Shown here piece by piece: positions 2,133-21,276 of a stretch of 63,757 nt of DNA. The notes below the pieces were generated by a model, which worked only from the letters and a program-made list of their open reading frames with translations, searched no databases and was not told the DNA's origin. Source of the DNA: an uncultured Granulosicoccaceae bacterium (lineage in GTDB: Bacteria > Pseudomonadota > Gammaproteobacteria > Granulosicoccales > Granulosicoccaceae). Position numbers and translations under genes: made by a program. Every line of letters starts with the position of its first letter. The stretch's first letter is position 1. Where the stretch lies: positions 1 to 63,757 of the forward strand of contig CALIMV010000047.1 in NCBI GenBank assembly GCA_938045275.1, in the 5' to 3' direction.

Positions 2133-2981
2133 ATGAATCTCATTATTAATACGAATATTGTGCGTGTGGCTACGATTGCTTTTGTATTGGTGGTAGTTAG
2201 TGCGTGTGAAGGTGAAGGCAGTTCTTCTTCTGGAAGTACTGGTAGTGTAACAGGCGTTGCCGGTTCAACTTCACGCATGGCAATTCAGGATGATTATCTG
2301 TACGCAATTGCAGACAACAAGATACAACTATTTCTGATTGACATTCCCAAGATACCCAACCCATGGGCAACCGTACCGGTTGATTGGGGTATACAGACGT
2401 TGTTTCCGTACGAAGATTATCTGTTGGTCGGTGCAGCGGATGGCATTCATATTCTGGACAACAGCGACCCGGCCAATCCGAGCGTGGTAGGTGGTTTGAC
2501 GCATGCCCGTACCATTGACCCAGTCGTCGCAAAAGATGGATATGCATATGTGACGCTTAAAAATGATCCTCAGGCGAGTAATCAGGTTGCCGACCAAATG
2601 AATGTGGTTGATCTGGCTGATATAAGAAACCCGCAGCTGGTTAAGGAGATCGGGATGCTATCGCCTGAGGGCCTGGTCGCGATAGACAACCGCTTGTTTG
2701 TTTGTGATGGGCCGGCTGGGTTAAAGCAATATAACTTAGATGATCCAGCTAATCCGTTATTTGTGGACGTGATCCGTGATGTCGATTGTAACGATGTGAT
2801 CGCTACTGGCGGTGTTGACCGATATATCACGTCCGCGAATATACTTTATGTGATTACCGATACAAGCTTGCGACAGTACGACTACAGCGTATCGCCACCG
2901 GCTTTACTCAGTATCATTGAAACGGAGTCTATGTCTGCTGATGCTTTAATCAAGGCATTGAGCGGTAAGATGCAGATCTAA
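2133..2981 (+). CDS. Lipoprotein with LVIVD beta-propeller repeats
   Basis: This 282-residue protein has a clear Shine-Dalgarno (GGGGAGA) before its ATG. A hydrophobic signal peptide ends in a lipobox (VVVSAC, Cys25), followed by a Ser/Gly-rich linker, so it should be lipidated after export. The body contains repeats of the form GIHILDNSDPANP, MNVVDLADIRNPQ and LKQYNLDDPANPLF, which define the LVIVD repeat family of bacterial surface beta-propellers. It is almost certainly co-transcribed with the membrane protein 9 bp upstream, which carries a similar motif. The role is unknown; LVIVD proteins are generally thought to mediate binding at the cell surface. The C-terminus ends without an anchor. 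Confidence 0.7.
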   Translation: MNLIINTNIVRVATIAFVLVVVSACEGEGSSSSGSTGSVTGVAGSTSRMAIQDDYLYAIADNKIQLFLIDIPKIPNPWATVPVDWGIQTLFPYEDYLLVGAADGIHILDNSDPANPSVVGGLTHARTIDPVVAKDGYAYVTLKNDPQASNQVADQMNVVDLADIRNPQLVKEIGMLSPEGLVAIDNRLFVCDGPAGLKQYNLDDPANPLFVDVIRDVDCNDVIATGGVDRYITSANILYVITDTSLRQYDYSVSPPALLSIIETESMSADALIKALSGKMQI

Positions 2982-3083
2982 TTAGCGCACTTGGTAACAG
3001 GTTGCTAATTGAGTAACGCATGTATTTGCCTGTGATTCAAACGTTGAGTTCATGAATCACGCCAAAGTCAAATTCGGTTGGGT

Positions 3084-3869
3084 TCAATCTTGGCGTCCAT
3101 AAAATGTGGTACGAGCCGACGCTGATAAACTAATACCTGGCTCGGTATTATAGGCAAGCACAGCTAGCATCCGCGTAGTATCACCGCTGGTTGGTGTCAC
3201 GCGGTGCAGCGAGTTTCGACCACGAAACAGTGCCAAGTCACCTGGATTTATATCAAGTGTGTCAACGGAAATTTGCCCATCCAATACCTTACCAACAAGT
3301 TCAAAGTTCATATCACCGGCATCGGCATTTCTAGCATCTTTTACATACTGAAAAACACCACCGCCTTCTGGTTTTTGAATTAACAGTGTGATAGCAAAAG
3401 AGGAGTTGTCAAAGTGCCAGCCAAGTTCTTGGCCATCAGCGGCATAGTGAAGATTGATCGATGAAAGTGGATCGGCGTATTCGTAAAGTCCAGGCTCTGC
3501 CAGCACTACGCATAAAAATTGCTTAAATGCTTCACTGTTGTAGAGCTCCTGCAGCACAGATGTCGCCGGGATTTGATCTGTAGTTATACAACCTTTGGAT
3601 GAGGTGACACATCGATTTCTAGGGTGCTCTGCGGCATAGTTTGTGTCCTTGTCGGCGAGGTAGACATTATGAGAACTATCTTTAAAGTATGCCAGGTGAG
3701 CGTTCTGTTCACCTTCAAGTCGGATGGAATCTACAGCGGCATCGGTCAGTAAGTCGCGAAGCAGCAACACACCGTCTTTATCTAACAATTGTTGGCATTG
3801 GATAGCATATTGTTTATCTCTAATTGGGTGTTGGCTGAGGTTTAGGAGTCTCGAAAGGTCGTTTTTCAT
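3084..3869 (-). CDS. Fe(II)/2-oxoglutarate-dependent oxygenase family protein
   Basis: The protein has 261 residues. The metal triad is visible as WHFD (His152, Asp154) and LHRV (His222), and Arg233 in the TTRML segment is the expected 2-oxoglutarate ligand. The ligands sit on a jelly-roll-like core (TLLIQKPEGGGVFQYV, then GDLALFRGRNS). Members hydroxylate small molecules with oxygen and 2-oxoglutarate. The gene stands alone, between the propeller lipoprotein (convergent) and the MttB homologue (divergent). It is one of four Fe/2OG oxygenases in the window. The substrate is unknown. The start ATG at 3869 is the natural one for the reading frame. Confidence 0.75.
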   Translation of the reverse strand: MKNDLSRLLNLSQHPIRDKQYAIQCQQLLDKDGVLLLRDLLTDAAVDSIRLEGEQNAHLAYFKDSSHNVYLADKDTNYAAEHPRNRCVTSSKGCITTDQIPATSVLQELYNSEAFKQFLCVVLAEPGLYEYADPLSSINLHYAADGQELGWHFDNSSFAITLLIQKPEGGGVFQYVKDARNADAGDMNFELVGKVLDGQISVDTLDINPGDLALFRGRNSLHRVTPTSGDTTRMLAVLAYNTEPGISLSASARTTFYGRQD

Positions 3870-4149
3870 TGGGTATTTTCAGAATTGTCTATTGCTAAAG
3901 TATATACAAAGGTGGCTGATGTCGCGGTTGACTTTGGTCGATAAGATTGTAAGTAGCGACAAAATCGTGATTATGAGAATCGTACTTGCAGGCACAGCAG
4001 CACGTTTATTCCTGTTGTATTCAATTCAGCGTCCTTGGTTACTTATTTGCCAAAGTGACGCTAATAGTCAACAATGCGGTAAAGATCGCTGGTTTTATCC
4101 ACACTGACGAATTTATACGGCAAGTTAGCTGGACTGGGTTGAGAAAAAA

Positions 4150-19354: not shown

Positions 19355-19804
19355 CTAGATAGGCTTGATAAGAAGTCGTATTCCTTCAACCGATACCACC
19401 GTTGCTGCATCTCCAACTGATAAAGTAGCCGATTCACCCTGCGCAAGCTCAGCTTGCCAATCGCTGCCTGACCAGCTGACCGTGCCACGACGTGAAGGTC
19501 CAACTGATTCTTTTATGGTGACTTGCTGACCCACGGCATTGTTACCGGACATAGCTGAAGGCTTTTTTTGCCAGCGACGTATAGGGGCAAAAAACAGGAT
19601 CGTGAATGCCACGGAAGCTACAAGAAAAACGATCAGTGTTGCGGTGTAAGTTACATCAGCGGACAGAAACGCATAACCAGCAGCCACTAACGAGCCTAGT
19701 CCGATAAAGAACAACCAAAAGGCGGTAAACTGAAACACCAGTACTTCGGTGGCTATCAACGCTATACCGATGATTAGAAAAAGCCAAAACGGGTTTAAAA
19801 TCAT
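19355..19804 (-). CDS. NfeD-family membrane protein
   Basis: The 149-residue protein has two or three N-terminal transmembrane segments (FWLFLIIGIALIATEVLVF, then FWLFFIGLGSLVAAGYAFL and a third around residue 55) and a C-terminal OB-fold domain (about 85-149, GQQVTIKESVGPSRRGTVSW). This is the short NfeD type that partners with stomatin/QmcA proteins. It starts 5 bp after the stop of the stomatin-like gene, forming the usual NfeD-SPFH pair that organises membrane microdomains. Confidence 0.87.
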   Translation of the reverse strand: MILNPFWLFLIIGIALIATEVLVFQFTAFWLFFIGLGSLVAAGYAFLSADVTYTATLIVFLVASVAFTILFFAPIRRWQKKPSAMSGNNAVGQQVTIKESVGPSRRGTVSWSGSDWQAELAQGESATLSVGDAATVVSVEGIRLLIKPI

Positions 19805-19809
19805 ACTAA

Positions 19810-21144
19810 TTAGCCACCAGTGAACGTTGTATTATTTGATGTTGGTTGCTCAGTTCCCATGGCAGTTTTAATACCGTTGAATGCGGTATAGGCTTTGGCA
19901 ACCATAGCAGCTACGTCAGTGCTGTCTGCTGGCAGCAAGGCGATGGTGCCTTCACGCGCCAATTTTTCAAACGCTGAAACGTACTGTTCTGCAAGTTGTT
20001 GAGCAACCGCTGCAGAACCACCTTCCGCATTAATAGCCTCTGAAATTTTAGTAATGGCTTCTGCACGTGCACTGGCTTCAATTGTTAAAGATTCAGCAGT
20101 ACCCTGGGCACGTAAAATTTGTGCCTGACGATCACCTTCAGCCTGGTTTATTTGAGCTTGGCGATAACCTTCAGAGGTTGTTACTGCAACACGTCTTTGA
20201 CGTTCAGCACCCATTTGCTTCTCCATTTCTTCCAAAATGGATGCTGGTGGGGTTATGTCTTTGACTTCGTACCGTAGTACTTTAGTTCCCCATGATTCAG
20301 ATGCTTCGTCAATTGCCCGAGTAACTTGCGCGTTAATAACTTCACGCGATTCAAAGGTATCGTCCAGCGAAAGCTTACCGATTTCAGCACGCATACTGGT
20401 TTGCGCAAGCTGCGTTATGGCAAACTGCAGGTTTTCAACACCATAGGAAGCTGCCCGCGCATCCATAATTTTCAAGTATAGAACACCATCGATACCGAGC
20501 ACGACGTTATCCCGTGTAATGGCATGCTGCGAGGCGACATCGACTGCGTATTCTTTTAACGAATGTTTGTAAGCCACTTTCTCTATAACTGGAATAGTGA
20601 CGTTAAAACCTGCCAGCAGGGTGCGATCGTACTTTCCAAGTCGCTCCACCACGTATGCCTCATTTTGAGGAACAATGCGAACAAACGCGCGCAGGAACAG
20701 GATGAGCAAAATTACAGCGCCCAATAACAGCGCTAAGCTCATGGATTCGAACATATTTATTCCTCCGAAGAAATCACTTATTTGAGTGATGATTGAATGA
20801 GTATTTGATGGTAAATCGTCGTTTGACGAGCTTGTTGGGTTGCTTTCAGTGGTTATTTTAAGGCTTGAGCCAACACTTCCTGACGGCCCTTTTAATGCCG
20901 ATAAAATGTAGTTTCCGAAAAATATCAAGATTGCAGTTGCTATCACAATATAAAGCAAGTACCTGCGGCGTTTCGGTTGGTCTGATGGGTCAGTATCGAT
21001 AGTGGCGTTGTCTTTTGGTGGAAGCGATTGGGTGCGATCAGCACCTTCTGGGCGCTTTTGTGGAGGTTCAGAGCGACCACGCAATTTATTGATCAGTTCT
21101 TGGAAAGCCTCGTCTAAATCTGGTGGGACCCCATTATTTGCCAT
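19810..21144 (-). CDS. Stomatin/QmcA-like SPFH protein with HflK-like N-terminal extension
   Basis: The frame gives 444 residues. From residue 131 on it is a standard stomatin/QmcA-type protein: a transmembrane segment (SLALLLGAVILLILFLRAF), a Band-7/SPFH domain (about 155-320, YVVERLGKYDRTLLAGFN), and a coiled coil rich in Ala, Glu and Gln (QAEGDRQAQILRAQGTAE). Residues 1-130 are unusual: PPDLDEAFQELINKLRG near the N-terminus closely resembles HflK, followed by a second transmembrane helix (YLLYIVIATAILIFFGNYIL) and a Ser/Asn-rich linker. A strong Shine-Dalgarno sits exactly before codon 131, so a short form starting at 20754 is likely too. It is paired with nfeD. HflK proteins restrain the FtsH protease, which may hint at the role of the long form. 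Confidence 0.83.
   Translation of the reverse strand: MANNGVPPDLDEAFQELINKLRGRSEPPQKRPEGADRTQSLPPKDNATIDTDPSDQPKRRRYLLYIVIATAILIFFGNYILSALKGPSGSVGSSLKITTESNPTSSSNDDLPSNTHSIITQISDFFGGINMFESMSLALLLGAVILLILFLRAFVRIVPQNEAYVVERLGKYDRTLLAGFNVTIPVIEKVAYKHSLKEYAVDVASQHAITRDNVVLGIDGVLYLKIMDARAASYGVENLQFAITQLAQTSMRAEIGKLSLDDTFESREVINAQVTRAIDEASESWGTKVLRYEVKDITPPASILEEMEKQMGAERQRRVAVTTSEGYRQAQINQAEGDRQAQILRAQGTAESLTIEASARAEAITKISEAINAEGGSAAVAQQLAEQYVSAFEKLAREGTIALLPADSTDVAAMVAKAYTAFNGIKTAMGTEQPTSNNTTFTGG
20752..20766 (-). promoter_or_regulatory. Internal ribosome binding site and ATG inside the stomatin-like gene
   Basis: On the minus strand, GGAGGA (20766-20761) is followed by a 6-nt spacer and ATG (20754-20752), in frame with the long product at Met131. 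This is an ideal initiation site and coincides with the normal N-terminus of QmcA-type proteins. It could give a 314-residue short form besides the 444-residue long form. Confidence 0.6.
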
Positions 21145-21276
21145 GTGGAATTATACCGCTTTATAGAGCTTGAAACGCTATAAAGAAACATTGGGGTTTA
21201 GTATTACATTTTTCAATAACTTAGCTACTGCCTATTTAGTTCCCCATCATTCCGTTTATTTTTAAAGAAACAAAAC

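Follow-up and report, generated by a model that had tools for sequence, protein, structure and literature searches.

The open reading frame at 19810..21144 (minus strand) of the window, i.e., the 63,757-nucleotide stretch of DNA that we analyzed (contig C47 of a 5.75 Mb genome, 82% complete, of an uncultured Granulosicoccaceae bacterium), encodes a QmcA/stomatin-type SPFH protein of 444 amino acids that adjoins NfeD and carries a 130-residue N-terminal extension. The extension begins with a tail that appears HflK-like, and a second start codon is located exactly where the extension ends. In the reading that we consider moderately probable, a qmcA-type gene gained an HflK-like cassette and kept its old start, the two resulting products co-assemble, and the tails tether the resulting cage to an interaction partner of HflK. 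Sequence comparisons show the extension, the internal start site with its conservation, and the ancestry of the gene.

The core of the protein is of the stomatin/QmcA type and is linked to NfeD, as the original prediction had stated. Pfam matches comprise an SPFH/Band_7 domain at residues 157-337 (20134..20676, minus strand; 113.8 bits) and a Band_7_C domain at residues 366-426. The most similar known system is QmcA (YbbK)-YbbJ/NfeD (PDB 8z5g): QmcA is the best match among PDB sequences, where core residues 145-416 align at 192.6 bits, and also the best structural match with Foldseek. As in that system, an NfeD-like partner gene is adjacent; it is located at 19355..19804 (minus strand), 5 nt downstream of the long frame, and scores 31.9 bits with Pfam NfeD (cut-off 29.1). 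An NfeD-like frame also follows the stomatin gene in all five long-form orthologues from other genomes. However, QmcA has a single N-terminal helix, whereas the window protein carries a further 130 residues, which include the HflK-like tail and a second membrane helix, and its gene has an internal start. HflK (TIGR01933; HflK_N, PF12221) shares with the window protein the N-terminal PPDLDE segment and the order of tail, flexible linker, membrane helix and SPFH domain. Unlike HflK, the window protein has an SPFH core on the QmcA side (78 bits with the TIGR01933 hflK equivalog, versus a cut-off of 159.4), its gene is partnered with nfeD and has no adjoining hflC, and its extra helix is predicted to bring the SPFH domain back to the cytoplasm.

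Residues 1-130 are extra in comparison with a QmcA-type core and open with MANNGVPPDLDEAFQELINKL. The N-terminal segment is followed by a polar linker, a membrane helix (TM1, residues 59-84; 20893..20970), a variable, acidic and presumably periplasmic linker that ends in a predicted helix at residues 115-127 (linker residues 85-130; 20755..20892), and the anchor helix (TM2, residues 131-154; 20683..20754), all on the minus strand. Both membrane helices are indicated by hydropathy and by the AlphaFold model. A second membrane helix had been expected, and the extension indeed has a helix of its own, TM1; it has only this one, and the helix after it is the ordinary SPFH1 anchor of QmcA-type proteins. 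In the AlphaFold model of the 444-residue protein (mean pLDDT 76), the tail helix at residues 10-21 is confident (pLDDT approximately 85), the linkers are disordered, the predicted structure breaks at residues 128-130, and the anchor helix begins exactly at Met131. A positive-inside pattern is found in all six long forms, with 4-6 basic residues before TM1, an acidic loop, and basic residues after TM2. This charge pattern fits a predicted N-in, loop-out, C-in topology, in which the tail and the SPFH domain would both be cytoplasmic.

The first 25 residues of the protein read MANNGVPPDLDEAFQELINKLRGRS. An HMM search for the HflK N-terminal domain does give a match at residues 3-23 (21076..21138, minus strand), yet its score of 17.0 bits with the full protein is below the Pfam gathering cut-off of 22; the extension alone scores 19.6 bits. 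Scores with HflK_N are 17.0-20.3 bits, i.e., under the cut-off, with one orthologue (genome G011) above it at 22.3 bits. Singly, then, the Pfam match is weak. A custom model, for which we used the N-termini of 29 HflK proteins from relatives, gives a clearer answer, since all seven known extensions score 10.6-19.7 bits, compared to 9.7 bits for the best of 21,000 composition shuffles, which supports the predicted HflK-type N-terminus. HflK proteins of the same family read ...GGPPDLDEVFKNLKKKL, and the extensions follow roughly GGPPDL[DE]EVLKxLLxK. Each of the six long forms has the PPDL[DE] motif, a hydrophobic helix with 4-6 basic residues in the preceding 15, and an acidic loop. The PPDL codons vary silently among these six genes and the residues are constant, which shows that the N-terminal region of the long frame is translated and under selection. 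We describe the tail as HflK-like, a term that refers to its sequence and does not imply common descent with HflK.

The same long gene is present, with its frame open at full length, in five other Granulosicoccaceae genomes of the same genus (L066-L070; 69-74% identity); the long-form genomes in this comparison are metagenome-assembled. Further genes from this close family (L071-L078, L081, L087 and L107) are short forms; their start is the methionine aligned with codon 131 (MFESM), or lies a few codons away at most, and is preceded by a Shine-Dalgarno sequence of its own. In a tree of the core protein, the six long forms constitute one clade (100/99) that is nested in short forms. Since these sister lineages have only the short gene, with the same methionine and a good Shine-Dalgarno, the extension appears to have been added upstream of a working start, which was later kept. 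Relatives that start only at the internal ATG had been named as an observation that would count against the prediction; such relatives exist, but they are the background in which the long clade is nested, and so they explain the case. The proposed comparison of homologues thus finds the extension and the internal site together in six genomes and the short-only gene in sister lineages.

L079 (genome G030, 2833-3945) is a seventh long form, with a PPELDE tail, VANPQVPPELDEVFGRVKSYLGG..., in a compact extension of 57 residues that is read from GTG. It branches outside the six-member clade, and a single clade of all seven is rejected (p-AU 0.025), which would fit either two gains of the tail or one gain followed by several losses. 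The methionine of its old start has become isoleucine (ATT), and the short product is therefore not a general feature of tailed proteins, although an ATG four codons upstream has a site of -6.5 kcal/mol. Among 84 other SPFH1 loci, L079 is the only one with an in-frame PP[DE]L upstream. We found no separate tail-encoding gene upstream in short-form relatives. Our class and phylum searches were samples of a few hundred genomes each; none of the further matches listed from 369 sampled genomes of the class (193 with strong hits) extended into the N-terminal part without a break in the frame. The genomic neighborhood differs as well: most short-form relatives (L071-L078, L081, L087) have the gene just downstream of an MltA-like gene, according to our own reading of the sequences, and in the window's clade the stomatin gene is mostly divergent from a DegP/HtrA-like gene. 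The gain of the tail was thus accompanied by a change of neighborhood.

The sequence GGAGGA is present as predicted at 20761..20766, where it forms the codons of Gly127 and Gly128, and is separated by a 6-nt spacer from the ATG of codon 131 (Met131; 20752..20754). This ATG aligns with the only start of short-form relatives and is the predicted start of a 314-residue product (19810..20754) homologous to those relatives and corresponding to the ancestral QmcA/stomatin form (all on the minus strand). All six long genes have an in-frame ATG at the old start, preceded by GGAG with identical spacing. The energies of pairing between the internal Shine-Dalgarno and the 16S tail are -9.5, -6.4, -7.3, -11.4, -6.6 and -6.4 kcal/mol (window, L066, L067, L068, L069 and L070, respectively), and those at the long start, in the same order, are -3.3, -3.5, -4.5, -3.0, -5.6 and +1.3 kcal/mol, such that each gene has its weaker ribosome site at the long start. 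Other internal methionine codons (n=681) reach -6.5 kcal/mol in 6.6% of cases and -8.5 kcal/mol in 1.0%. Codon usage at the site is also unusual. Gly127 is encoded by GGA in all six genes, although this codon accounts for only 14% of glycines overall; of 16 invariant glycine columns, no other is GGA throughout. Among 86 fourfold columns with an invariant residue, just two have one fixed codon, of which Gly127 is one. The codon after it always begins with G, whether it encodes Gly, Asp or Glu. In pairwise comparisons of the long genes, 57-76% of the silent sites in the core differ, so that these sites are saturated. Maintenance of GGA and the following G at such divergence implies that conservation tracks the ribosome site, and not only the protein. 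In addition, the adjacent linker is full of indels, yet the spacing between ATG and GGAG is unchanged. We therefore favor the interpretation, on the basis of these alignments, that the internal start is kept under selection and is not merely a fresh relic.

Two alternative explanations concern the starts. It might be supposed that the gene truly begins at Met131 and that the upstream frame is open by chance, given that the Shine-Dalgarno is poor at the long start and stronger at the internal site. We consider this very improbable, because in six species the frame stays open for 117-169 codons and carries the same motif at its N-terminus, and because the synonymous codon changes, the membrane helix and the positive-inside pattern all lie upstream of Met131. 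Another explanation is that only the long protein matters, and that the internal start is an ancestral leftover whose product is absent or negligible. The short genes are indeed ancestral and use this same start, L079 is tailed but lacks the old ATG, and predicted RNA structure is neutral, in that the internal site is no more open than other internal methionines. However, a leftover should decay at saturated silent divergence, whereas the GGA, the next G and the spacing are kept in six of six genes, and the long start is the weaker ribosome site in all of them, so we regard this explanation as unlikely. The original prediction had offered two products or a recent fusion that left the old start. 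Fusion holds as the origin of the gene and two products are favored as its present function; a fresh relic, however, does not accord with a site that is maintained across six species with saturated silent sites.

The remaining alternative concerns the tail, which might be a convergent short linear motif that does not descend from HflK, and which may nonetheless bind the same partner. In favor of convergence, the likeness spans only approximately 21 residues, and the leading MAWNEPG...DPWG part of HflK is absent from the extensions. Moreover, tails were probably gained twice, as judged by the AU test against one clade (see above), and a PPDL tail also heads an unrelated 169-residue protein beside FloA (see below). 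On the other hand, GGPPDLDEVxKxLxKK closely matches HflK of the same family, and the succession of motif, helix, basic linker and membrane helix is that of HflK. We consider convergence rather unlikely.

Under our preferred reading, in which the gene is read from two starts, an nfeD-paired qmcA-type stomatin gene would have acquired an in-frame upstream cassette that comprises an HflK-like cytoplasmic PPDL[DE]E helix and one membrane helix, connected by a flexible linker. The old start, whose Shine-Dalgarno is now within coding sequence, would have been selected for. The short product would have the ancestral N-out anchor and a cytoplasmic SPFH domain. In the long product, the tail would be cytoplasmic, TM1 would lead out, the linker would be periplasmic, and TM2 would lead back in to a cytoplasmic SPFH domain. 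With the added helix, the SPFH domain could keep its orientation even though an N-in HflK tail has been placed in front of an N-out stomatin; the SPFH domain of QmcA is predicted to face the cytoplasm and those of HflK/C the periplasm (PMC10434171). We infer that both products are made and co-assemble. Because they carry the same oligomerizing core, mixed cages are expected, and these QmcA/NfeD-like cages would have HflK-type tails on some subunits only. A comparable arrangement is HrcQ/HrcQC, in which the full-length and internal-start products of one gene join one complex (PMC8553256). The likeness lies in obtaining full-length and C-terminal products from one gene, where the short form of the stomatin is only predicted, and the Hrc proteins are unrelated to stomatin. 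We found no SPFH proteins with internal start codons in the literature.

As a last step, the tails would bind the cage to a protein that HflK also contacts, most probably FtsH, alone or in its complex with HflKC. We place FtsH first because in E. coli both QmcA(YbbK)/YbbJ and HflK/C multimers interact with it (PMC2636767), and by this analogy it is plausible that the tail contacts FtsH or HflKC. Of the five other long-form genomes, four have a true hflK as a separate gene; the genome of the window, at 82% completeness, yielded neither HflK nor HflC. In the published FtsH-HflKC model, most HflK subunits start at residue 79 and residues 1-78 are omitted (PMC12048511), and we found no function for HflK's own N-tail in the literature. 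The natural transfer of this tail to another SPFH scaffold, with a tail-less version apparently retained, provides a straightforward means of probing the function of the tail. The gene would also exemplify a large membrane cage whose decoration depends on which of two start codons is used.

A broader and more speculative proposal, which we think improbable as it stands, is that the PPDL[DE] helix is a portable tag for recruitment to SPFH cages, being native in HflK, gained at least twice by QmcA-type stomatins, and found on a PPDL-headed protein after FloA in the window's genome. The internal start in the window's clade would then set the number of tags per cage, and would thereby link NfeD/stomatin cages to FtsH-type proteolysis with an adjustable dose.

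Upstream of the long start, positions 21145-21260 of the window contain a block like TTGAAAAATGNNATACT, approximately 65-75 nt before the ATG, and similar blocks occur in several orthologues; this block is possibly a promoter. We also considered leaderless translation of the long form from a TATAAT beside its ATG, and dropped this idea because the TATAAT is not conserved in orthologues.

The FloA-linked protein is encoded on another contig of the window's genome (L116; contig C363, 6093-9756, minus strand), in a run consisting of an SppA-like/NfeD-type gene of 534 amino acids, an NfeD-like gene of 163 amino acids, FloA (512 bits) and the 169-residue protein. The latter starts with MNANSNQGPPDLNVVFREVF, and this head resembles HflK_N, scoring 15.2 bits in the custom HflK model. 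FloA was found in none of 57 other relatives, 369 genomes of the class or 398 genomes of the phylum that we sampled, such that L116 looks like a horizontal transfer or a mis-binned contig. A conserved FloA operon with a PPDL protein was therefore rejected, as the pattern rests on one genome. Second, divergent hflK-hflC operons are present in genomes G012, G029, G032, G049 and G015 (L109, L110, L111, L112 and L113, respectively), and the HflK of each has a variant PPD[LF][DE] head.
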